Shown here: positions 4,192-17,109 of the stretch, in pieces
Numbering within the stretch: position 1 is the first letter of the stretch
How the letters are laid out: every line of letters begins with the position of its first letter
Assembly (NCBI GenBank): GCA_026417035.1
Contig: JAOAEA010000007.1
Location: 20,058 to 84,057, forward strand
DNA: 64,000 bases
DNA from: Burkholderiales bacterium
Lineage (GTDB): Bacteria > Pseudomonadota > Gammaproteobacteria > Burkholderiales > SG8-39
Direction of reading: 5' to 3'
The notes under the pieces: generated by a model
The model's input: only the letters and a program-made list of their open reading frames with translations
Database searches by the model: none
Told to the model about the DNA's origin: nothing
Made by a program: the position numbers and the translations under genes

Positions 4192-4902
4192 TCAGACGCC
4201 GAGGTAGCGCTCGCGGATCGAAGGGTCGCCGCGCAGGCGCTCGGACGGCCCCTCGAAGACCACGCTCCCTTTGACGAGGATCATCGCCCGGTCGGCGATG
4301 GCGGTCACGGCCCGGAAGTTCTTGTCGACGATGATGGTGGCGATGCCGGAGGCCTTGATCTCGCGCACGATGCGCCAGATCTCGCGCGAGACGAGCGGTG
4401 CCAGCCCCTCGGTCGCCTCGTCCAGGATCAGCACGTCCGGGTTCGTGAGCAGCGCCCGCCCTATGGTGAGCATCTGCTGCTCGCCGCCGGAGAGCTGGCC
4501 GCCGCCGTGGCCGATGCGCTCGCGCAGCCGCGGGAACGCCGCGAGGACGCGCTCGAGCGTCCAGTCGCGCTGCCCTCGGGCGCCGGCGCGCGCCGCCATC
4601 ACCAGGTTCTCGTGCACCGAGAGGTTGGGGAAGATGCCACGCCCTTCGGGCACGTACGCGACGCCGGCCAGCGCGATCCGGTGCGGCGCGCTGCGCGTCA
4701 TGTCCGCGCCCTTCACCCGCACCGTGCCCGACCGGGGCCGCACCAGCCCGAGGATGCTCTTGAGGAGCGTCGACTTGCCCATGCCGTTGCGGCCCATGAG
4801 GCCCAGGGTCTCGCCCGGCGCGAGCGCCAGGTCGACGCCGTGCAGGATGTGGCTCGCCCCGTAGTAGGTATGGATGCCGCGCGCTTCGATGAGGCTAGTC
4901 AT
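4192..4902 (-). CDS. livF: Branched-chain amino acid-type ABC transporter ATPase LivF
   Basis: This 236-residue ATPase is the LivF-type subunit: Walker A GRNGMGKST, then GVAYVPEGRGIFPNLSVHENL (diagnostic of LivF), signature LSGGEQQML, and Walker B VLILDEATEGLAP. It is the last gene of the benzoate-CoA ligase/Liv operon and overlaps livG by 8 bases. With LivG it would drive uptake through LivH and LivM. Since the genes follow benzoate-CoA ligase directly, I infer that the transported solute is benzoate or a related aromatic acid and not a branched-chain amino acid. Confidence 0.95.
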   Translation of the reverse strand: MTSLIEARGIHTYYGASHILHGVDLALAPGETLGLMGRNGMGKSTLLKSILGLVRPRSGTVRVKGADMTRSAPHRIALAGVAYVPEGRGIFPNLSVHENLVMAARAGARGQRDWTLERVLAAFPRLRERIGHGGGQLSGGEQQMLTIGRALLTNPDVLILDEATEGLAPLVSREIWRIVREIKASGIATIIVDKNFRAVTAIADRAMILVKGSVVFEGPSERLRGDPSIRERYLGV

Positions 4903-5653
4903 GCGCCTCGTCCCCGCCGAGGTAGGCGTCCTGCACCGCCTGGCTCGAGCGGATCCGCTCGGGCGTGCCGGACTCGAGGACGACGCCGTTCACCATCACG
5001 GTGAGCGTGTCGGCGAGGGCGAAGACGGCGTCCATGTCGTGCTCGACGAGCAGCATCGCGTGGTCCGCGGCTAGCCGCTGCAGCAGGGCGACGATCCGCG
5101 CGGACTCTTCGGCGCCCATGCCGGCGAGCGGCTCGTCGAGGAGCAGCAGCGTGGGGTCGGTCGCGAGCGTCATGGCGATCTCGACCTGGCGCTGCTCGCC
5201 GTGCGAGAGGCTCGCGACGGTGGCGCCCTCGCGCCCCTCGAGCCCGGCGGCGGCGATCGCGCGCTCGGCCGCCTCGTTCACCGCCCGGAGCGCCGTCGCC
5301 GGACGGAAGAACCGGAGCGAGCTCGCGAGGCGCGACTGCGCGGCGATCCGCGCGTTCTCGAACACCGTGAACGGCAGGAAGACGTTCGTCTTCTGGTAGC
5401 TGCGGCCCACCCCGAGCCGCGAGATCCGGTCCGCCGTGAGGCCGGTGACGTCGCGCCCGCGCAGGCGCACCGTGCCGCTCGTCGGCGGCAGGTCGCCCGA
5501 GAGCATGTTGATGAGCGTCGACTTGCCGGCGCCGTTCGGCCCGATCACCGCGTGCACCTCGCCCATGCGGCACTCGAGCGAGACGCCGCTCACCGCCGCG
5601 AGCCCGCCGAAGTTGCGCGATAGCCGTTCCACCGCGAGCACGACCTCCGCCAT
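4895..5653 (-). CDS. livG: Branched-chain amino acid-type ABC transporter ATPase LivG
   Basis: This is a LivG-type ATPase with Walker A GPNGAGKST, signature LSHGEQRQVEIAM and Walker B LLLLDEPLAGMG. I place the start at MAEVVLAVERLSRNFGG. Its ATG overlaps the livM stop by one base (TGATG), whereas the longer ORF at 5683 would run into livM. The protein is then 252 residues, normal for the family. Its position in a livH-livM-livG-livF series downstream of benzoate-CoA ligase supports a role in aromatic acid import. Confidence 0.95.
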   Translation of the reverse strand: MAEVVLAVERLSRNFGGLAAVSGVSLECRMGEVHAVIGPNGAGKSTLINMLSGDLPPTSGTVRLRGRDVTGLTADRISRLGVGRSYQKTNVFLPFTVFENARIAAQSRLASSLRFFRPATALRAVNEAAERAIAAAGLEGREGATVASLSHGEQRQVEIAMTLATDPTLLLLDEPLAGMGAEESARIVALLQRLAADHAMLLVEHDMDAVFALADTLTVMVNGVVLESGTPERIRSSQAVQDAYLGGDEAHD

Positions 5654-6609
5654 CAGCCGCTCCGTCCGCGCTGGAGCGGCCACGCGAGGCCCGCGATCCC
5701 GTTCGGCAGGAAGAGCGCGACCAGGACGATGGTCGTGCCCATGAGGAGCTGCCAGTGCTCGCTCAACCCCTGGAACACGAGCTCCAGCAGGAGGAACGCC
5801 GCAGCGCCGATCACCGCGCCCGCGAGCGTGCCCATCCCGCCGAGGATCACCATCATCAGCACCGAGCCGGAGAGGTGCCAGCCGAGCATCTCCGGGTTGA
5901 CCGCGCCGTACTGCACGGCGCCGAAGTAGCCGGCGAGGCCCGCGACCGCGCCCGCGATCGTGAAGGCGACGAGCTTGTAGCGGAACGTCGGGAAGCCGAG
6001 CGACTTCATCCGGTGCTCGTTCACGCGGATGCCCTGCACGACGCGGCCGAACGGCGAGGCGAGCACCACGCGCAACACGAGGTACGCGGCGACGAAGACC
6101 GCCAGCACCACGAAGTAGAGGTGGACGAAGTTCGCGAGGTCGAACGGGGTCCAGCCGAAGAGCGCCGTGTCGGGGCGCACGTCGATGAAGATGCCGTCCG
6201 AGCCGCCCGCGATCTTGGTGTCGTGGAACACGTAGTACACCATCTGCGCGAACGCGAGCGTCACCATGATGAAGTAGACGCCCTGGGTGCGCACCGCGAA
6301 GAAGCCAATCGCGGCGGCGAGCAGGGCGGCGCCGCCCACGGCGAGCGGCAGGCTGGTCCAGAAGTTCGCCGCCTGGTACTGCGGCGCGGCGAGCGCGACG
6401 AGGTAGGCGCCGAAGCCGAAGAACGCCGCGTGCCCGAGGCTGACGAGCCCCGCGTAGCCCACCAAGAGGTCGAGGCTCATGGCGAAGACCGCCATGATCA
6501 GGATCTTGGTGGCGAGCTGCACGTAGTACTTGCCGGCGACGGCCGGGAGCGCGACGAGCGCGAGCAACACCACGATCAGGAGCACCGTCGCGGCGCGGTC
6601 GGAGCGCAT
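5653..6609 (-). CDS. livM: Branched-chain amino acid-type ABC transporter permease LivM
   Basis: This LivM-family inner-membrane permease has 318 residues and starts MRSDRAATVLLIVVLLALVA. Several hydrophobic segments follow, with the family-typical LDLLVGYAGLVSLGHAAFFGFGAY. The ORF track shows it only as the tail of a 1427-residue ORF that reads through other genes in the wrong frame. The true start is the ATG at 6609, which overlaps the livH stop by one base (TGATG). It forms the translocation pore together with LivH. Confidence 0.94.
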   Translation of the reverse strand: MRSDRAATVLLIVVLLALVALPAVAGKYYVQLATKILIMAVFAMSLDLLVGYAGLVSLGHAAFFGFGAYLVALAAPQYQAANFWTSLPLAVGGAALLAAAIGFFAVRTQGVYFIMVTLAFAQMVYYVFHDTKIAGGSDGIFIDVRPDTALFGWTPFDLANFVHLYFVVLAVFVAAYLVLRVVLASPFGRVVQGIRVNEHRMKSLGFPTFRYKLVAFTIAGAVAGLAGYFGAVQYGAVNPEMLGWHLSGSVLMMVILGGMGTLAGAVIGAAAFLLLELVFQGLSEHWQLLMGTTIVLVALFLPNGIAGLAWPLQRGRSG

Positions 6610-7505
6610 CAGAGCCGCTTCCCGAAGATGCCCTCGGGCCGCCACAGCAGCACGCCCGCCATGAGGAGGTACATCGCCATGCCGGCGAGGTCGGGCAGCA
6701 CGCGCAAGCCGCCGAGCTCGAGCGTGGTCACCTTGCCGAAGGTGTCCACGAGGCCGATCAGGATCGCCGCGACGAGCGCCCCTTTCACCGAGCCGATGCC
6801 GCCGATGACGACGACGACGAACGACACGATCAGCACCTGGCCGCCCATGCCCGGGAACACCGAGGACACCGGCGCCGAGATCATGCCCGCGAACGCCGCG
6901 AGCGCGACGCCGAAGGCGAACACGAACCGGTAGAGCATGCGGATGTTGATGCCGAGCGACTGCACCATCTCGCGGTTCGAGGCGCCGGCGCGGATCATCA
7001 TGCCCAGGCGCGTGCGCTGGATGAGGAGGTACATCGCCACGGCGAGCGCCAGCACGACCGCGGAGATCCACAGCCGGTACACGGGGTAGGCGAGCGTCTC
7101 GGTGAGCGGGATCGACCCGGTGAACGGCGCCGGCACCGGGATGCCGTGCACGTCGTTGCCCCAGATCATGCCGCGCAGCTCCTCGAAGGCGAGGATCAGG
7201 CCGTAGGTGAGCAGCACCTGGTACAGGTGGTCGCGCGCGTAGAGCCGCGCGATGAGCAGCCACTCGATCAGCATCCCCAGCGCGACCGTGAGCAGCACCC
7301 CGACCGGGAGCGCGAACCAGAAGCTGCCGATCTTCCCCGCGAGCGACCAGGCGAGGTAGGCGCCGATCATGTAGAAGCTGCCGTGGGCGAGGTTGATGAC
7401 GCCCATGATCCCGAACACGAGCGTGAGCCCGCTCGCGATCAGGAAGAGGAGCAGCCCGTACTGGACGGCGTTGAGCAGCTGGACGAGGAAACTGCCGAGG
7501 TCCAT
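6609..7505 (-). CDS. livH: Branched-chain amino acid-type ABC transporter permease LivH
   Basis: This 298-residue LivH-type permease begins MDLGSFLVQLLNAVQYGLLL and contains the typical GLTLVFGIMGVINLAHGSFYMIGAY near residue 30, with around eight membrane segments. It follows the substrate-binding protein gene after a 105-bp gap that holds a hairpin terminator. It is coupled to livM by a one-base stop/start overlap. It is presumed to be part of the aromatic acid importer. Confidence 0.95.
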   Translation of the reverse strand: MDLGSFLVQLLNAVQYGLLLFLIASGLTLVFGIMGVINLAHGSFYMIGAYLAWSLAGKIGSFWFALPVGVLLTVALGMLIEWLLIARLYARDHLYQVLLTYGLILAFEELRGMIWGNDVHGIPVPAPFTGSIPLTETLAYPVYRLWISAVVLALAVAMYLLIQRTRLGMMIRAGASNREMVQSLGINIRMLYRFVFAFGVALAAFAGMISAPVSSVFPGMGGQVLIVSFVVVVIGGIGSVKGALVAAILIGLVDTFGKVTTLELGGLRVLPDLAGMAMYLLMAGVLLWRPEGIFGKRL

Positions 7506-7561
7506 GCGGTGGTCGCCTGCGCTGTCGTTCGCCTCCCGCGCGCGGCGCGGCCCCCATCAGC

Positions 7562-7591
7562 AAAACGCCGGTGCCCTCGCGGACACCGGCG
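7562..7591 (-). terminator. Intra-operon hairpin with T-run after the substrate-binding protein gene
   Basis: Read on the minus strand, CGCCGGTG and CACCGGCG form an 8-bp perfect GC-rich stem with a 10-base loop, followed at once by TTTTGC. This is the shape of an intrinsic terminator. It sits between the binding-protein gene and livH. The likely effect is partial termination that gives more binding protein than membrane subunits, a common arrangement in ABC importer operons. Confidence 0.7.
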
Positions 7592-7610
7592 CTCGCTGCG
7601 GGACGCCGCG

Positions 7611-8822
7611 TCAGGCTCCCGGCATCTTGCAGCGGTCGGCCGGCGGGTAGTCGAGCGCCTTCACGGCCACCCCCGAGGCGCGGTTCTCCTTGCCGACGAC
7701 CTTGCGCAGGTACAGGTCCTGGATCGGGTTGTGCGCCTTCGACATCCGCCAGGTGCCGCGGGGGCTCTCGATCACCGCGCCTTCCATGGCCTTGATGAGG
7801 GCCGGCTTGTCCACCGCGCCCTTGGTCTTCGCGAAGGCCTGGACGAGGAGGAGGCCGGTATCGTAGCCCTGCACCGCGTACACGTCGGGCTGCATCTTGA
7901 AGGTCTTGGCGTACGCGAGCCGGAACGTTTTGTCCTTCGCGAGGTCGAGCGAGTCGGCGTAGTGCAGCGTCGTCTCGATGCCCTCGGCCGCGTCGCCCGC
8001 GGCGTCGAGCACGCCGTCGGTGAGGAAGCCCGCGCCGTAGAGCGGGATCTTGCCCTTCAGTCCCGCTGCCTGATAGTCCTTCAGGAACTTCACCGCGCCG
8101 CCGCCGGCGAAGAACGTATAGACGGCGTCGGGCTTCAGCGAGGCGATCTCGGTGAGGAGCGGCTGGAACTCGACGTTCGGGAACGGCAGCCACAGCTCCT
8201 TGGTCACCTTGCCGCCGCCCTTGGTGAACGCGTCCTTGAATCCGGCGACGCTCTCCTCGCCCGCGGCGTACTTCCAGGAGATCGTGACGACGTTCTTGAT
8301 GCCGCGCTCGGCCATCACCTTGCCCATCGGGTACCCGACCTGGCCGTTGGCGAAGGAGGTGCGGAAGATGTTCGGCGCGCAGAGGGGCCCGGTCGCCGCG
8401 TCCGCCCCGGCATTCGGGATCAGCAGCAGGGCGTTGGTCTCGCGCGCCACGCGCACCATGGCGAGCGCGACGCCCGAGTGCACCGTGCCGACCAGCCCGT
8501 CCACCTTGTCGCGGGTGATCAGGCGGTTGGCGTTGTCGGTCGCCTTCGCCGGGTCGGATTCGTCGTCGAGCTTGACGAACTCCACCTCGCGGCCGCCGAG
8601 CTTCCCGCCCGCCTCGTCGATCGCGAGCCGGATGCCGTTCTCGATCGCGACGCCGAGCTGCGCGAACGTGCCCGAATAGGGCAGCATCAGCCCGATGCGG
8701 ATCTTGCCCGTCTGGCCGATGGCGGCGGCGGGCAGCAACGCGCCGAGCGCCGCCGCGCCGCCGAGCGCACCCCCCTGCTTGAGAAACGCGCGGCGGCCGC
8801 GCAGGTCCTTCTCCTCGGTCAT
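7611..8822 (-). CDS. ABC transporter substrate-binding protein (LivK type, Tat-exported)
   Basis: This is a periplasmic binding protein of the Leu/Ile/Val (peripla_BP_6) family, 403 residues. The N-terminus carries a twin-arginine signal, RRAFLKQGG followed by a hydrophobic stretch and AAAIGQ. The mature part begins KIRIGLMLPYSGTFAQLG, the usual first strand of this fold. A good Shine-Dalgarno (GAGGAAGG) precedes the ATG. It lies between benzoate-CoA ligase and livH, so I infer capture of benzoate or a similar aromatic acid. The ligand itself is not provable from sequence. Confidence 0.92.
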   Translation of the reverse strand: MTEEKDLRGRRAFLKQGGALGGAAALGALLPAAAIGQTGKIRIGLMLPYSGTFAQLGVAIENGIRLAIDEAGGKLGGREVEFVKLDDESDPAKATDNANRLITRDKVDGLVGTVHSGVALAMVRVARETNALLLIPNAGADAATGPLCAPNIFRTSFANGQVGYPMGKVMAERGIKNVVTISWKYAAGEESVAGFKDAFTKGGGKVTKELWLPFPNVEFQPLLTEIASLKPDAVYTFFAGGGAVKFLKDYQAAGLKGKIPLYGAGFLTDGVLDAAGDAAEGIETTLHYADSLDLAKDKTFRLAYAKTFKMQPDVYAVQGYDTGLLLVQAFAKTKGAVDKPALIKAMEGAVIESPRGTWRMSKAHNPIQDLYLRKVVGKENRASGVAVKALDYPPADRCKMPGA

Positions 8823-8888: not shown

Positions 8889-10481
8889 CTACTTCTGGCC
8901 CGCGGCGCGGAGCTTGAACCGCTGGATCTTGCCGGTGGCGGTCTTCGGCAGCTCGCTCATGAACTCGATCCAGCGCGGGTACTTGTAGGGCGCGAGCCGG
9001 TCCTTCACGTGCTGCTGGAGCCGCGCCTTCAATTCGTCGCCCGGCACGATCCCCGGTTTCACCACCACGTAGGCCTTCGGCTTGACGAGCCCGTCGGTGT
9101 CGGCCGCGCCGACGACCGCCGCCTCCAGCACGTCCGGATGCGTCATCAGCGCCGCCTCGACCTCGAAGGGCGACACGTAGATCCCGCTCACCTTGAGCAT
9201 GTCGTCGGAGCGCCCGCCGTAGACGTAGTAGCCGTCGGCGTCCACGCTGTACTTGTCGCCGGCCCGCGTCCACGGGCCCACGAAGGTCGCGAGCGAACGG
9301 GCGCGGTTGTTCCAGTACATGATCGCGCTCGAGGGACCGTTGATCTGCAGCTCGCCGATCTCGCCGGGCTTCGCGTCGTTGCCGCTCTCGTCGACGAGCC
9401 GCACCTGGTAGCCCGGCACCGGCTTGCCGGTCGTGCCGTAGCGCACGTCGCCCGGGCGGTTCGAGAGGAAGATGTGCAGCATCTCCGTGGAGCCGATGCC
9501 GTCGAGGATCTCCACGCCGAAGTGCGCGGTCCAGCGGCGCCCGATGTCGGCGGGCAGCGCTTCGCCGGCGGAGGTGCACACGCGCATGCCCACCTCCTCG
9601 CGCCGCGGGAGGTCCGGGCTCGCGAGCATCGCCGCGTAGAGGGTCGGCACGCCGTAGAAGATCGTCGGCCGATGTTCCTTGAGCCGCTTCGCCACGCTCG
9701 CCGGCGTCGGCCGCTCCGCCATCAGCACGGTGGTCGCGCCGACCGAGAGCGGGAACGTGAGCGCGTTGCCGAGCCCGTACGCGAAGAAGAGCTTCGCGGC
9801 CGAGAACACGACGTCCGATTCGCGGATGCCGAGGATCGGCTTCGCGTAGAGCTCCGCGGTGTAGACGAGGCTCGACTGGATGTGCACCGTGCCCTTGGGC
9901 GTGCCGGTCGAGCCCGACGAGTAGAGCCAGAAGCACACATCGTCGCAGGTGGTCGGCGCGGGCTCGCAGCGGGCCGGCGCGTCGGCCATGAGGTCGGCGA
10001 GTCGCCGATGGCCGTGGGGGTTCGCGCCCGACACGATCACGTGCTCGAGGAATGGCAGGTCCTCGAGGATCGGCGCGAACACCGGGAGCAGCGGCTCGGA
10101 CACCACCAGCGCACGCGCCCGGCTGTCCTCGAGCATGAACTTGTAGTCGGCCGCCGTGAGCAGCGTGTTCGCCGCGATCGGGACGATCCCCGCCTTGATC
10201 GCGCCGAGGAACACGCTCGGGAAGTCGATGGTGTCGAGGAGCGCCACCATGATGCGGCTCTCCATCGCGAGCCCGAGCGAGGCGAGCGCGTTGGCGGCGC
10301 GGTTCACCCGCTCGGCGAGGTCCGCGTAGGTGTAGCGCCCGGCGTCGTCGATGTAGGCGACCTTGGCACCCCGGCCGGCCTTGAGGTTGCGTTCGATCAG
10401 GTCGTGCGCGGCGTTGTAGTCGCGCGGGATCCGGACGACGGGCGGACTCGCGCTGTGGTCCGCGGTGCTCAGTGACGCCAC
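8889..10481 (-). CDS. bclA: Benzoate-CoA ligase
   Basis: This 530-residue member of the adenylate-forming superfamily converts benzoate, ATP and CoA to benzoyl-CoA, the first step before the Box enzymes. The AMP-binding motif YSSGSTGTPKGT lies near residue 180, and the C-terminal lysine motif is LPKTATGKIQRFKLR. The overall sequence matches the benzoate-CoA ligase family, beginning PRDYNAAHDLIERNL. The start is a GTG preceded by GGAGGAGAGC. It lies between the DUF4863 gene and the substrate-binding protein gene, close enough for one transcript, and probably responds to the BoxR-like repressor. Confidence 0.93.
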   Translation of the reverse strand: MASLSTADHSASPPVVRIPRDYNAAHDLIERNLKAGRGAKVAYIDDAGRYTYADLAERVNRAANALASLGLAMESRIMVALLDTIDFPSVFLGAIKAGIVPIAANTLLTAADYKFMLEDSRARALVVSEPLLPVFAPILEDLPFLEHVIVSGANPHGHRRLADLMADAPARCEPAPTTCDDVCFWLYSSGSTGTPKGTVHIQSSLVYTAELYAKPILGIRESDVVFSAAKLFFAYGLGNALTFPLSVGATTVLMAERPTPASVAKRLKEHRPTIFYGVPTLYAAMLASPDLPRREEVGMRVCTSAGEALPADIGRRWTAHFGVEILDGIGSTEMLHIFLSNRPGDVRYGTTGKPVPGYQVRLVDESGNDAKPGEIGELQINGPSSAIMYWNNRARSLATFVGPWTRAGDKYSVDADGYYVYGGRSDDMLKVSGIYVSPFEVEAALMTHPDVLEAAVVGAADTDGLVKPKAYVVVKPGIVPGDELKARLQQHVKDRLAPYKYPRWIEFMSELPKTATGKIQRFKLRAAGQK

Positions 10482-10545
10482 GCTCTCCTCCTCCTCCTTC
10501 TTCCTCCGCCGGCCCGCTCGGGCGCGGGCTCGCTCTTCGTCGTCT

Positions 10546-11013
10546 CTAGGTCTTGGTGAACTCGATGGCGCCGCCGGGCAGGAGGTAGAGCACCAGGGCC
10601 CGACCCTCGGTCACCGTCGGGTAGTGCGCCGTTCCCGGGCCGTAGACGAGCCAGCCGGCACCGCGCCCGTCGAACCGCGCCCCGGGCGACACGGGCATGA
10701 TGAGGTCGATCTCCCCGTTCGGATGCCGGTGGTGCGGCCCCTTCACCGAGTCCATGTCCACCACGTCCACCGAGAGATCGCCGAGCGCTGCGCCCGGCTT
10801 CAGGACGCGGCCGTATCTTATGCCCCCGCCCTCGCGGCTGCACATCCATCCCGCGGCGATCGCGGCGTGGCACGCCTGCGTGACCGCCGCGAACGTCGCG
10901 CTCGCCGGCCCGAATGCGTCGTTGAGATCGGCTTCGAGAGAGGCGTCGAGCGCGCGGCCGCGGATGCGCTCCGCGATCGGCGCGAGCAGCGCCTCGAATG
11001 CCTGCGGGGTCAT
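10546..11013 (-). CDS. DUF4863 protein (4-hydroxylaminobenzoate lyase-like)
   Basis: This 155-residue protein begins MTPQAFEALLAPIAERIRG and ends GGAIEFTKT; it resembles the DUF4863 family. One characterised relative is 4-hydroxylaminobenzoate lyase (PnbB). The central GPHHRHPNGEIDLIMP looks like a cupin-type metal site with several histidines and a glutamate. Homologues are often found with box genes, but their role there is not established. The start ATG has a clear AGGAGG 5 bases upstream. It is the first gene of the minus-strand operon, directly after the divergent promoter region. The longer 606-aa ORF in the track is a readthrough of the boxR antisense strand. Confidence 0.8.
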   Translation of the reverse strand: MTPQAFEALLAPIAERIRGRALDASLEADLNDAFGPASATFAAVTQACHAAIAAGWMCSREGGGIRYGRVLKPGAALGDLSVDVVDMDSVKGPHHRHPNGEIDLIMPVSPGARFDGRGAGWLVYGPGTAHYPTVTEGRALVLYLLPGGAIEFTKT

Positions 11014-11287
11014 GCTTGCCTCCTCGTGCGTCCGCGGCTCACCCGGCGCACCCTCGGATCCTGCGCAAGGGGGGTCGATGCACGACGAGCACCCGGCCGC
11101 GGGTGACCGTCGGCCGGTGCGCCGGCCCAGCGGGCGGGGACAAACGAGCCGGCCGCAGGAGCACCCGTCGCGCGGCGCGCCTGCCCGCGCGAATCGTCCA
11201 TCGCTCGGCGCCCACGCCGGTCGCGTGAGCCCGGCCTCTCCCGAGACAGGACACCCGGCCCTTCCTCCGCTGGGGACTGAATCCCTC

Positions 11288-11351
11288 TTGCCCTTGGATG
11301 CTGATGCATTATAATGCCGTCCATCCGAAGCGCAAGCACTATATTGCATTC
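11288..11351. promoter_or_regulatory. Divergent promoter/operator between the bcl-liv operon and boxRCBA
   Basis: A perfect 12-bp palindrome GCATTATAATGC lies at 11306-11317 and contains TATAAT on both strands (11310-11315 forward, 11313-11308 reverse). TTGCCC sits 16 bp upstream on the plus strand (11288-11293). TTGCGC sits 16 bp upstream on the minus strand (11335-11330). Two TGCA motifs (11305-11308 and 11345-11348) are 40 bp apart. BzdR/BoxR-type operators are reported to contain TGCA repeats, so this is a strong candidate operator covering both promoters. Confidence 0.7.
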
Positions 11352-11361
11352 CCCCACCAAC

Positions 11362-12258
11362 ATGGTTCCCGCCGAGGCTCGCGCCGCCAACAAGGCCGCG
11401 GATGCGGAAAGCCGCGAGGACGCGGCCTTCCTCCGCGCCCTGGGCGAGCGGGTCCGCCAGGCGCGGGCGCGCCGCGGCATGTCGCGGCGCATCCTCGCCG
11501 CCGATTCCGGGGTCTCCGAGCGCTATCTCGCGCAGCTCGAGGCCGGCCAGGGGAACGTCTCGGTGCTCCTCCTCGCGCGCGTCGCCGCGGCCCTCAGCCT
11601 GCCGGTCGCCGAGCTCGTCCGCGAGGACGAGCCGCGCTCGCTCGAGCTCGACCTCATCCAGAGCTTCCTCAAGCGCATCCCGACGCCGAAGCTCGCCGAG
11701 GTGCGGTCGCAGCTCGTGCGCGATTTCGGCGCGGCGCGCACGGACCGCATGCACCGCATCGCCCTCGTCGGGCTGCGCGGCGCCGGGAAATCGACGCTCG
11801 GCGCGAGGCTCGCGCGCGAGCGCGGCGTGCCCTTCATCGAGCTCGACCGCGAGATCGAGCGCGAGGCCGGGACCAGCCTCTCGGAGATCTTTCTCCTCTA
11901 CGGCCAGGCCGGCTACCGCCGCTACGAGCGCCGCGCGCTCGAGAAGGTGCTCGACGCGAACGAGCGCTGCGTGATCGCGACCGGCGGCAGCATCGTCTCC
12001 GAGCCGGGCACCTACGACCTGCTCCTCGCGACGTGCTTCACCGTCTGGCTCAAGGCGGCCCCCGAGGAGCACATGGCGCGCGTGGTCGCCCAAGGGGACA
12101 TGCGGCCGATGGCCGGCAGCGAGGAAGCGATGGACGACCTGCGGCGCATCCTCGACAACCGGGCGATGCTCTACGCGCAGGCCGACGTGACGATCGACAC
12201 CGCCGGCAAGTCGGTCGAAGAGAGCCTTGCCGAGCTCAACGCGGCCGCGGCCCCCTGA
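11362..12258 (+). CDS. boxR: BoxR/BzdR-family transcriptional regulator (XRE HTH plus shikimate kinase-like domain)
   Basis: This two-domain repressor has an XRE helix-turn-helix around residues 30-80 (ALGERVRQARARRGMSRRIL, ending ARVAAAL). A shikimate kinase-like domain begins near residue 130 with P-loop GLRGAGKST and LDREIEREAG. In BzdR and BoxR this second domain binds benzoyl-CoA, which releases repression. I choose the ATG at 11362 (298 aa), because the ORF-track ATG at 11314 lies inside the promoter palindrome. No clear ribosome-binding site precedes it. It is the first gene of boxR-boxC-boxB-boxA and lies opposite the bcl-liv operon, both of which it probably controls. Confidence 0.9.
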   Translation: MVPAEARAANKAADAESREDAAFLRALGERVRQARARRGMSRRILAADSGVSERYLAQLEAGQGNVSVLLLARVAAALSLPVAELVREDEPRSLELDLIQSFLKRIPTPKLAEVRSQLVRDFGAARTDRMHRIALVGLRGAGKSTLGARLARERGVPFIELDREIEREAGTSLSEIFLLYGQAGYRRYERRALEKVLDANERCVIATGGSIVSEPGTYDLLLATCFTVWLKAAPEEHMARVVAQGDMRPMAGSEEAMDDLRRILDNRAMLYAQADVTIDTAGKSVEESLAELNAAAAP

Positions 12259-12288
12259 CCGCGCCCGCACACCCAGGAGGACACACCC

Positions 12289-13973
12289 ATGAGCGCCGTA
12301 CTGAACGCGCCCCCACCGACCGATTCGCTCGTGACCTTCGACACGCACCCGGACCGCTACGCCCACTGGAAGCTCGCGTTCGACGGCGCGGTCTCCACGC
12401 TGGCGATGGCCGTGGACGAGGACCGGGGGATCCGCCCGGGTACGAGCTGAAGCTCAACTCCTACGACCTCGGCGTGGACATCGAGCTCAACGACGCGCTG
12501 CAGCGCATCCGCTTCGAGCATCCGGAGGTGAAGGTCGTCGTGCTGACGAGCGCGCGCGAGCGGATGTTCTGCTCCGGCGCGAACATTTACATGCTGGGCC
12601 TGTCCTCGCACGCCTGGAAGGTCAACTTCTGCAAGTTCACCAACGAGACGCGCAACTCGATGGAGGACTCGAGCCGCGACGGCGGGCTGAAGTTCCTCGC
12701 GGCCGTGAACGGCACGATGGCCGGCGGCGGCTACGAACTCGCGCTCGCCTGCGACGAGATCCTGATGGTCGACGACCGCTCCTCGACGGTGAGCCTGCCC
12801 GAGGTGCCGCTCCTTGGCGTGCTCCCCGGGACCGGCGGACTGACGCGCGTCACCGACAAGCGGCACGTGCGCCGCGACCTCGCCGACGTGTTCTGCACGA
12901 TGACGGAGGGCGTGCGCGCCGACCGCGCCAGGCAGTGGAAGCTCGTCGACCACGTGGCGAAGCCGCAGGTCTTCAGGGAAGCGGTGCAGGAACGCGCGGC
13001 GGCGCTCGCCGCGAAGAGCCAGCGGCCGGGTCCCGGGGCCGCGACGGGCGTCGCGCTCGCTCCGCTCGCGCGCACGATCGACGACGGCGGGTACCACTAC
13101 GGGCATGTGGACGTGGCGATCGACCGCAAGGCGCGCACCGCCACGATCACCGTCGGGGCGCCGCGCGAGCCGCAGCCGGCGGACCTCGCGGGGATCCTCG
13201 CGGCGGGCGCCGCCTGGTGGCCGCTCGCGATGGCGCGCGAGCTCGACGACGCGATCCTGATGCTGCGCGCGAACGACCTCGACATCGGCACCTGGATCCT
13301 CAAGACGCGCGGCGACGCCGACGCCGTCCTCGCCGCGGACGCCGCGCTCCTCGCGTATCGCGACAACTGGTTCGTGAAGGAAGTGCTGGGCATGCTGCGG
13401 CGGACGCTCGCGCGGCTGGACACGTCCTCGCGCACGCTCTTCGCGCTGATCGACCGCGGCTCGGCCTTCGCCGGCAGCCTCCTCGAGCTCGCGCTCGCCG
13501 CCGACCGCAGCTACATGCTGCTGCTTCCCGACGACGCGGAAGCGCCGCGCGTGGTGCTCTCGGAGATCAACTTCGGGCCGCTGCCCATGGTGAACCACGC
13601 CACGCGGCTCGCGACGCGTTTCTGCGGCGCGGCGCAGCCCGTCGAGGCGGCGCGTGCGGTGATCGGCGACCGGCTCGACGCCGCGGTCGCCGCCGAACTC
13701 GGCCTGGTCACCTTCACGCCCGACGACCTCGACTGGGACGACGAGGTGCGCATCGCCGTCGAGGAGCGCACGAGCCTCTCCCCCGACGCACTCACCGGGA
13801 TGGAGGCGAACCTGCGCTTCCCCGGCGCCGAGACCATGGAGACGCGCATCTTCGGCCGCCTGTCGGCGTGGCAGAACTGGATCTTCATCCGGCCGAACGC
13901 GGTCGGCGAGCAGGGGGCGCTCAAGGTCTTCGGGACCGGCGCCAAGGCGAAGTTCAACTGGGACCGGATCTGA
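12289..13973 (+). pseudogene. boxC: Benzoyl-CoA-dihydrodiol lyase BoxC, with an apparent -1 frameshift
   Basis: BoxC is a crotonase-like enzyme that opens the benzoyl-CoA epoxide/dihydrodiol ring. The ATG at 12289 has CAGGAGG upstream and reads MSAVLNAPPPTDSLVTFDTHPDRY... to EDRGIRPG, then stops at TGA 12448-12450. The family reading continues one frame over as YELKLNSYDLGVDIELNDAL from 12441 to the stop at 13973. One missing base in CCCGGG/TAC explains it. If the frame is restored the protein is about 561 residues, normal for BoxC, and the rest (CSGANIYMLG, MAGGGYELALACDE) is intact. It could be a recent mutation or a sequence error; the downstream boxB and boxA are intact. Confidence 0.88.
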
Positions 13974-14212
13974 CAGCGTGATGCGAAACGCCGTCCTGAC
14001 AGCGACGAGGCCCCTGGCGGAGAGCCAGCCACGAGCGAACAGCGCGTTTTGCGTCACCGGCTTTGGGGATCGCAAAGGGGCTGTGGCCCCTTTGCATCGA
14101 CCTGCCAGACAGTCCCGACCGCGAGGGCGCGATCGCATGGCGGCCCGGGCCGCCGGCAAGGGCGCGGTCGCCTTCGTGTCTTCGTGGTGAGCATTCCTTT
14201 CAGGAGACCGTG
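13974..14212 (+). other. boxC-boxB spacer with a 10-bp hairpin, no gene
   Basis: This 239-bp gap is long for an operon. It holds a hairpin (14072-14095) with arms GCAAAGGGGC and GCCCCTTTGC around a TGTG loop. No T-run follows, so it is not a classic terminator; it may be an mRNA processing or stability element. CAGGAGACCG upstream of boxB is the ribosome-binding site. The ORF that starts at 14063 is only a readthrough extension of boxB. Confidence 0.55.
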
Positions 14213-15640
14213 ATGAGCAGCATCGACTACAGCGAGCGCATTCCGAACAACGTCAACCTCTCGAGCAACAAGACGCTGCAGCGCGCGCTCGAGCACTGGC
14301 AGCCCGCCTACCTCAAGTGGTGGCAGGAGATGGGCCCCGAGGGCTCGACGTCGATGGACGTCTATCTCCGCACCGCGATCAGCGTCGATCCGAAGGGCTG
14401 GGCGCACTTCGACTACGTGCGCATGCCCGACTACCGCTGGGGGATCTTCCTCGCCCCGCCCGAAGCCGGGCGCAAGGTCAACTTCGGCGCGCACAAGGGC
14501 GAGCCCGCGTGGCAGGAGGTCCCGGGCGAGTACCGCTCGGTGCTGCGCCGGATCATCGTCACCCAGGGCGACACCGAGCCGGCGAGCGTCGAGCAGCAGC
14601 GCCACCTCGGGCTCACCTGCCCGTCCCTCTACGACCTGCGCAACATCTTCCAGGTGAACGTCGAGGAAGGCCGCCACCTGTGGGCCATGGTCTACCTGCT
14701 GCACGCCTACTTCGGCCGCGACGGCCGGGAGGAAGGCGAGGCGCTCCTCGAGCGGCGCTCCGGCGACGCCGACAACCCGCGGATCCTCACCGCCTTCAAC
14801 GAGAGGACCCCCGACTGGCTCTCGTTCTTCATGTTCACCTTCATCACCGACCGCGATGGCAAGTACCAGCTCGCCGCGCTCGCGGAGTCGGGCTTCGACC
14901 CGCTCTCGCGCACCTGCCGCTTCATGCTCACCGAGGAAGCGCACCACCTCTTCGTCGGCGAATCGGGCGTCGCCCGGATCATCCAGCGCACCTGCGACGT
15001 CATGGCCGCGCACAAGACCGACGACCCCGCGAAGCTGCGCGGCCTCGGCGTGATCGACCTGCCGACGATCCAGAAATACCTCAACTTCCACTTCTCGGTG
15101 ACGAGCGACCTCTACGGCTCCGAGATCTCGTCGAACGCGGCCTCCTTCTACACGCAGGGGCTCAAGGGCCGCTTCGAGGAGACCAAGATCGGCGACGACC
15201 ACGTCCTGGACTCCGCCGAGTATCCGGTGATGGAGGTGGTCGGCGACCGGATCGCGGTGAAGCACGCGCCGGCGCTCAACGCGCTGAACGAGCGGCTGCG
15301 CGACGACTGGATCCGCGACGTCCAGTCGGGCGTCGACCGCTGGAACCGCATCCCGGAGAAAGCCGGCATCCCGTTCCGGTTCACGCTGCCGCACAAGGGC
15401 TTCCACCGCAAGATCGGCGTCTTCGGCGAGCACCACGTGAGCCCGGACGGCCGCGTCGTGTCGGAGGCCGAGTGGACCCACCACGCGAGGGACTGGCTGC
15501 CGACCTCCACCGACCGCCAATACGTCCACTCGCTCATGGGCCGCGTCACGGAGCCGGGCAAGTTCGCCAACTGGATCGCCCCCCCGGCGCGCGGCATCAA
15601 CAACCAGCCGGTGGACTTCGAGTACGTCAGGTTCAACTGA
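14213..15640 (+). CDS. boxB: Benzoyl-CoA 2,3-epoxidase, oxygenase component BoxB
   Basis: BoxB is the di-iron oxygenase that adds one oxygen atom to benzoyl-CoA, giving the 2,3-epoxide, with electrons from BoxA. The protein begins MSSIDYSERIPNNVNLSSNK and is 475 residues, the family length. Candidate iron ligands are visible in VEEGRHLWAMVY and MLTEEAHHLFVGE, the EXXH motifs of the ferritin-like fold. The start ATG at 14213 has CAGGAG upstream. It lies between boxC and boxA. The sequence is intact. Confidence 0.95.
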   Translation: MSSIDYSERIPNNVNLSSNKTLQRALEHWQPAYLKWWQEMGPEGSTSMDVYLRTAISVDPKGWAHFDYVRMPDYRWGIFLAPPEAGRKVNFGAHKGEPAWQEVPGEYRSVLRRIIVTQGDTEPASVEQQRHLGLTCPSLYDLRNIFQVNVEEGRHLWAMVYLLHAYFGRDGREEGEALLERRSGDADNPRILTAFNERTPDWLSFFMFTFITDRDGKYQLAALAESGFDPLSRTCRFMLTEEAHHLFVGESGVARIIQRTCDVMAAHKTDDPAKLRGLGVIDLPTIQKYLNFHFSVTSDLYGSEISSNAASFYTQGLKGRFEETKIGDDHVLDSAEYPVMEVVGDRIAVKHAPALNALNERLRDDWIRDVQSGVDRWNRIPEKAGIPFRFTLPHKGFHRKIGVFGEHHVSPDGRVVSEAEWTHHARDWLPTSTDRQYVHSLMGRVTEPGKFANWIAPPARGINNQPVDFEYVRFN

Positions 15641-15787: not shown

Positions 15788-15898
15788 ATGAACGCCACCG
15801 CGGAGCCCGTAGGGCAGCACCGCATCGACCCGATGCAGCCGAACCAGGGGGCACACCCCCTTGTCGATCCCCCATCCGCGCTCGAGGTGCTGCCGTGA
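15788..15898 (+). pseudogene. Degenerate partial copy of the boxA 5' end (36-codon ORF, coupled to boxA)
   Basis: The ATG at 15788 starts a 36-codon [21 protein letters not shown]... whose TGA (15896-15898) overlaps the boxA GTG start as GTGA. Its first 15 or so codons parallel boxA ([16 protein letters not shown]). In nucleotides, 24 of 27 bases match over the stretch encoding xVxQHxIDP. It is therefore a partial tandem duplication of the boxA start, about 107 bp upstream. It could act as a leader peptide that couples translation, or be dead sequence. Confidence 0.6.
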
Positions 15899-17109
15899 AC
15901 GCCGAACTCGTACGGCAGCACCTCATCGACCCGGAGATCTGCATCCGCTGCAACACCTGCCAGGAGACCTGCCCGATCGACGCGATCGAGCACGACGCCC
16001 GCAACTACGTCGTGAAGTTCGACGTCTGCGACGGATGCAACGAGTGCATCCCGCCCTGCCCGACCGGCGCGATCGACAGCTGGCGCAAGGTCACGAAGTC
16101 GAAGCCCTACACGCTCGCCGAGCAGTACGCGTGGGATTCGCTGCCCGCGGAGACCGAGCCCGACGTGGGGGCGCCGGGCGACGTCCCCGAAGAGGTCGTG
16201 CGCATCACCGCGGAGGCGACCGCCGGCACCGGCGGTCCGCTCGCGCCGCCCTGGTCCGCCGCCCATCCCTACGTCAACCTCTACTCGCTCGCCCGGCCGG
16301 CGGTCGCCACCGTCAGCGGCAACTACCGGCTCACCGCCGAGGACGCGTCGAGCGACATCCGCCACATCGTCCTCGACTTCGGCAACTCGGCGTTCCCCGT
16401 GCTCGAGGGCCAGTCGATCGGCGTGATACCGCCCGGGGTCGACGCGAACGGCAAGCCGCACCACGTGCGTCTGTACTCGGTCGCGAGCCCGCGCAACGGC
16501 GAGCGGCCCGGCTACAACAACCTCGCGCTCACCGTGAAGCGCGTCGTCGAGGACCACGAAGGCAAGGCGGCCCGCGGCGTCTGCTCGAACTACCTTTGCG
16601 ACCTGCGGAAGGGCGACCAGGTAAAGGTCGTCGGGCCCTATGGCACGAGCTTCCTGATGCCCAACCACCCGGGCTCGTCGCTGATGATGATCTGCACCGG
16701 CACCGGTTCGGCGCCGATGCGGGCGATGACCGAGCGGCGGCGCCGGCGCATGGCGCTCAAGGAAGGTGGCGAGCTCATGCTCTTCTTCGGCGCGCGCGCG
16801 CCCGGGGAGCTGCCCTACTTCGGGCCACTCATGAAGCTGCCCAAGGACTTCATCGACATCAACTTCGCCTTCTCGCGCGTGCCGGGCGAGCCCAAGCGCT
16901 ACGTGCAGGACCGGATCCGCGAGCGCGGCGAGAAGGTCGCGCGGATGCTCGCCGACCCGAACTGCTACATCTACGTCTGCGGCCTGAAGGGCATGGAGGC
17001 CGGCGTCAACGAGGCGTTCGCCGATGTCTGCCGCGCGCACGGACTGGACTGGAGCGCCGTGCTCGCCGGCCTTAAAGCGCAGGCGCGCTTCCACGTCGAA
17101 ACCTACTGA
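15895..17109 (+). CDS. boxA: Benzoyl-CoA 2,3-epoxidase, reductase component BoxA
   Basis: BoxA passes electrons from NADPH to BoxB. The N-terminus carries two 4Fe-4S cluster motifs, [12 protein letters not shown] and [12 protein letters not shown]. The rest is a ferredoxin-NADP reductase-like module with FAD-binding [11 protein letters not shown] and nucleotide-binding [14 protein letters not shown], ending with the C-terminal YVCGLKGME. The length of 404 residues fits the family. The start is a GTG that overlaps a short upstream ORF as GTGA. It is the last gene of boxR-boxC-boxB-boxA. Confidence 0.95.

Follow-up and report, generated by a model that had tools for sequence, protein, structure and literature searches.

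The closest described relatives of the site analysed here are the BoxR/BzdR operators of betaproteobacterial box and bzd gene clusters. In a comparison of 32 Betaproteobacteria, the BoxR/BzdR motif was defined as the palindrome ATGCACTATAGTGCAT, which is almost always found in several copies, mainly three to five helical turns apart, and which sits between boxR-boxCBA and the pfam16155, bclA and benzoate transporter genes (PMC6449761). A second precedent comes from bidirectional promoters, defined by starts 7-25 bp apart (PMC10268837), with favoured start distances of 10, 18 or 23 bp (PMC12825309). In one of them, E. coli PacrA/acrR, the -10 element is common to both directions and AcrR represses both RNAs (PMC12825309).

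We analysed a stretch of 64,000 nucleotides from a Burkholderiales genome (contig JAOAEA010000007.1), called here the window, in which a site at 11288-11351 resembles both systems. As in the box/bzd clusters, there are 16-nt palindromes with a TATA core, in copies about three turns apart, placed between divergent boxR-boxCBA and pfam16155-bclA-transporter arms and accompanied by an XRE-shikimate-kinase repressor; unlike in that account, in whose searched text -10 and -35 elements at these operators are not discussed, one operator would here serve as the -10 both ways (PMC6449761). With PacrA/acrR the site shares the combination of an autorepressor gene and a divergent target with a common -10, the repressor shutting both. 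However, AcrR belongs to the TetR family, while the window site has no known activator, its common -10 forms a perfect palindrome in the middle of the operator, and a second operator holds part of a -35. Our reading, to which we give a probability of roughly 78%, is that the site is a BoxR-repressed bidirectional sigma70 promoter embedded in an operator with two BoxR sites.

A box divergon with two predicted BoxR operators

The gene arrangement in the window is that of the published divergon: the plus strand encodes BoxR, BoxC, BoxB and BoxA, and the minus strand a PF16155 protein, benzoate-CoA ligase and an ABC transporter. The boxR gene (11362-12258, 298 aa) starts at ATG 11362 and matches NCBIfam PRK08154 with 420.8 bits (cut-off 204); its product contains the Pfam domains HTH_3 (residues 31-85) and SKI (139-292), as expected of an XRE plus shikimate-kinase-like regulator. 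Its recognition helix is common to Azoarcus-type BoxR, and the pattern VSER-LA-LE-G-GN is nearly invariant across the family. The ATG at 11314, which would give the longest reading frame, was rejected as the boxR start because it lies inside the -10 and so cannot start a transcript from this promoter. Downstream lie boxC (12288-13973; TIGR03222, 873.6 bits downstream of a frame break), boxB (14171-15640, where 15640 is the frame end and the start codon is not fixed; TIGR03225, 912.8 bits) and boxA (15895-17109; TIGR03224, 710.7 bits). The boxC frame changes near 12430-12440, between ...DEDRGIRPG and GYELKLNSYDLG..., through either an error of sequencing or assembly or a genuine frameshift; the latter would inactivate the ring-opening enzyme. 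On the minus strand, the first gene encodes a PnbB-like protein (PF16155, 174.4 bits; 10546-11013, with GGAGG ahead of its ATG), followed by the benzoate-CoA ligase gene bclA (8889-10481; TIGR02262, 847.9 bits) and an ABC-type uptake system (4192-8822). The solute-binding protein of this system (7611-8822) matches Peripla_BP_6 with 256.5 bits, and its permease and ATPase genes were assigned from ORF translations only.

Two palindromes resembling ATGCACTATAGTGCAT lie between the arms, 30 bp apart, a distance within the three to five helical turns of the published pattern. O1, ATGCATTATAATGCCG at 11304-11319, has a profile score of 20.9, belongs to a pair conserved among boxR loci, and has as its core the predicted shared -10; O2, AAGCACTATATTGCAT at 11334-11349, scores 23.5. 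The initial annotation had pointed to two TGCA motifs 40 bp apart as fitting a BzdR/BoxR operator. These are found at 11305-11308 and 11345-11348, but the case is stronger than it was argued, since the second TGCA is the right end of a near-palindrome that had been overlooked, GCACTATATTGC at 11336-11347, 30 bp centre to centre from GCATTATAATGC, so that two 16-bp BoxR palindromes are present instead of loose motifs. Across the genome, GCANTATANTGC is confined to O1 and O2, which have 2 and 1 mismatches, respectively, to ATGCANTATANTGCAT, and no better site exists anywhere. With good confidence, on the basis of these matches, O1 and O2 are predicted BoxR operators. The genome search returned no further good BoxR operator outside this pair, and the idea of a wider BoxR regulon was dropped on that ground. 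Operator number varies among boxR loci: three have no recognisable operator within 400 bp, and four of the Azoarcus type (L020, L097, L105 and L106) have five to ten candidates.

A probable palindromic -10 element with a -35 on each side

The core of O1 is the palindrome GCATTATAATGC (11306-11317), which reads TATAAT on each strand, as the initial annotation had described. Toward boxR, TATAAT (11310-11315, plus strand) follows the hexamer TTGCCC (11288-11293), read directly and also found by a strict sigma70 scan, with a spacer of 16 bp; toward the pnbB-bclA-ABC operon, TATAAT (11308-11313, minus strand) follows TTGCGC (11330-11335) with the same spacer, and the TT of this hexamer falls within the edge of O2. 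Both hexamers and spacers agree with the initial reading. The two -10 elements thus overlap on opposite strands, as is characteristic of bidirectional promoters. If each transcript began 7 bp after its -10, the predicted starts would be ~11322 (plus) and ~11301 (minus). The site then resembles bidirectional promoters generally in its symmetric common -10, its -35 on each side and its predicted starts within 7-25 bp (PMC10268837, PMC12825309), although the predicted distance of 21 bp is none of the favoured 10, 18 or 23.

The layout is unique in its genome. ATTATAAT is present twice in the 3.77 Mb, and TTG-N17-ATTATAAT-N17-CAA occurs a single time, even with one mismatch allowed. The GC content of 11288-11351 is 47%, against 72% across the window. 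Within 9000-13500, the strict scan returned one sigma70-like site, the plus-strand one (10/12 matches), compared with 0.1 in shuffles, and no other; the minus-strand site fell below the scan rule because TTGCGC, a weak -35, matches the consensus at only 3/6 positions.

Flanking TTG elements across boxR loci

BoxR operators in general carry a TATA core, and the palindrome alone is therefore no proof of a double promoter. Because a resemblance to the -10 is expected from the operator itself, the flanks provide an independent test. The boxR loci for this test came from named genome contigs and 399 genomes belonging to the order. After all of them had been placed in the same orientation relative to boxR, we derived an operator profile and retained the 60 that were non-redundant and held two operators at a spacing of 30 bp (33 loci) or 31 bp (27 loci). 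In the 30-bp pairs, a TTG stood 16, 17 or 18 bp upstream of the O1 -10 on the boxR strand in 18/33 and at exactly spacer 16 on the divergent strand in 13/33, against a background of 0.019 per position; the binomial values are ~1e-14 if shared ancestry is ignored. At other offsets the TTG count was 0-2, except for 7 at offset 20, which is inside O2 itself. Among the 31-bp pairs, 11 of the 27 had a divergent-strand TTG at spacer 17, and another 11 had instead a boxR-strand TTG 17 bp before O2, mostly as TTGAC.

Part of the divergent -35 belongs to the adjacent operator, and a preference of BoxR therefore had to be separated from the need of a promoter; three comparisons speak for the promoter. 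TTG was found at 37/120 inner operator edges versus 1/120 outer edges (p=1e-11), and the bases following the inner-edge TTG leaned to the -35 consensus, with A at position 4 in 20/37 and C at position 5 in 15/37. In loci with a wider operator spacing of 49-51 bp, this edge again reads TTGACA or TTGACG, and a -10-like hexamer (such as TAAAGT or TAGATT) stands 17 bp on, in the gap and not in the other operator, which argues that this edge serves the promoter and not BoxR. Of the 12 loci with both TTGs, 6 carry TATAAT in both directions at O1, compared with 5 of the other 48. Tuning of the operator's free base toward TATAAT lends weak support: on the boxR strand this base was A in 14/22 at O1 versus 5/22 at O2 (p=0.007), and the same O1/O2 comparison on the divergent strand was not significant (p=0.5).

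Both TTGs surround O1 in 12/60 loci, the boxR-strand one only in 10 and the divergent one only in 12; O2 is used toward boxR in 13/60, and 12/60 lack a promoter-spaced TTG at either operator. A tree of BoxR proteins places the window in an unresolved group of ten loci, 9/10 of which have both TTGs; in other lineages boxR is read from O2 or lacks a recognisable -35. On this tree the two-way layout requires at least 6 changes, which means that it has been gained or lost repeatedly. The Azoarcus/Aromatoleum-type loci (L020, L097, L102, L105 and L106), with operators 31 bp apart, resemble the window in having a -35 (TTGAC) in the inner edge of one operator and the -10 in its neighbour. Unlike the window, they read boxR from O2, and the -35 and -10 for the other direction are at another operator >100 bp away. 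Use of O2 as the -10 for boxR, the rule in these loci, was ruled out in the window, where no TTG lies at 15-19 bp. Five further loci have TTGAC directly before O1, upstream of boxR, and a -10-like hexamer (TAGAAT, TAAAAT, CATAAT) 17 bp on, between the operators; this suggests a further promoter layout, with O1 within the spacer.

The predicted leader of pnbB

The predicted pnbB leader is ~290 nt long and GC-rich, longer than the 44-103 nt that precede the first gene of several near relatives. In many near relatives (ten loci), the first divergent gene encodes a 158-aa flavodoxin (PF00258), usually 44-103 nt from O1. This gene is absent from 11014-11303 of the window, where the leader stands in its place, and a search made with no positive control did not find it elsewhere in the 90%-complete genome. 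A structured leader or riboswitch was considered and ruled out: Rfam gave only a sub-threshold CRISPR-repeat match inside the pnbB coding region (23 vs 45 bits), and the leader folded no better than shuffles (z=-0.19).

Alternative readings of the palindrome

The palindrome could be a BoxR operator and the -10 of one promoter only, the second -10 being a by-product of symmetry and the promoter of the other arm lying elsewhere. The TATA core of the BoxR consensus is in keeping with this idea, as are the 22/60 loci with a TTG on a single side of O1, the length of the pnbB leader and the weakness of the divergent -35. We nevertheless regard it as unlikely, because both TTGs stand at 16-18 bp in the window and in nine of its ten nearest loci, and because the strict scan of 9000-13500 returned no other sigma70-like site. 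A more radical version, in which neither -10 is used and the promoters lie elsewhere or depend on another sigma factor, would let the operator account for the TATA core and would suit the 12 loci devoid of a suitably spaced TTG; it leaves unexplained, by operator function alone, the enrichment of TTG at exact sigma70 spacing on both strands and the contrast between inner and outer edges, and we consider it highly improbable.

The flanking TTGC words might themselves be extra, TGCA-like BoxR half-sites instead of -35 elements, given that some of the hexamers are TTGCAA or TTGCAT and that binding of BoxR/BzdR to TGCA repeats tolerates various spacings. This is hardly credible: most hexamers are TTGNNN without TGCA (TTGATT, TTGGTC, TTGTCG, TTGACC), and a spacer of 16 would put 12 nt between such a word and the TGCA of O1, versus the reported 1, 6 or 15. 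The initial proposal of divergent promoters sharing a palindromic -10 at a BoxR operator draws its support from the -35s, conserved at 16-18 bp across boxR loci, and from the persistence of the layout in nine of those ten nearest loci; the palindrome is insufficient by itself.

Discussion

The bidirectional promoter that we propose would work as follows. With a perfect TATAAT in both strands of the O1 core, polymerase could load facing either boxR-boxCBA or pnbB-bclA and the ABC transporter genes. Without benzoyl-CoA, BoxR would sit, perhaps cooperatively, on O1 and O2, which are about three helical turns apart and hence on the same face of the DNA. With O2 falling at the beginning of the boxR transcript, the bound protein would cover this region together with the shared -10 and the divergent -35, silencing both arms, boxR included. 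In this organism, benzoyl-CoA would presumably induce both arms by releasing BoxR.

Opposed polymerases would be mutually exclusive at the site, and the arms may therefore limit each other when fully induced. Two polymerases cannot bind simultaneously at bidirectional promoters; in five tested E. coli examples, basal activity was too low for competition, and interference arose only after strong activation of one direction (PMC12825309). The competition between operons proposed in the initial annotation is thus plausible, being physically sound, and would not be automatic.

Each component is already known: the operators, their regulator and bidirectional promoters. We did not find their merging described, although the overlap of a -10 with the operator may already be on record in footprint work on Azoarcus BoxR/BzdR. 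In the merged form, the common -10 coincides exactly with the operator centre, and a change of the partner half-site from GCAT to GCTT gives the TTG of a -35. A broader and tentative extension, which we think possible more than probable, is that BoxR operators form a reusable promoter-operator module: each palindrome would offer a two-way -10, the inner edge of its neighbour would be altered into a -35, and the 30/31-bp pitch would reflect the joint demands of helical phasing and the 16/17-bp promoter spacer. Lineages would switch the operator used for each direction; here, both directions would have merged on one operator, with polymerase exclusion helping to set the ratio of uptake and activation to ring opening.

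Bidirectional promoters are abundant in bacteria and their control has hardly been studied. As read here, the site would be a conserved natural example of a single palindrome that acts at once as two-way start signal and repressor operator. Its relatives, with both directions on O1, only one, or one moved to O2, would allow promoter sharing, repression and polymerase exclusion to be compared within a single pathway, and the BoxR operator model used in annotating aerobic benzoyl-CoA regulons would be refined.
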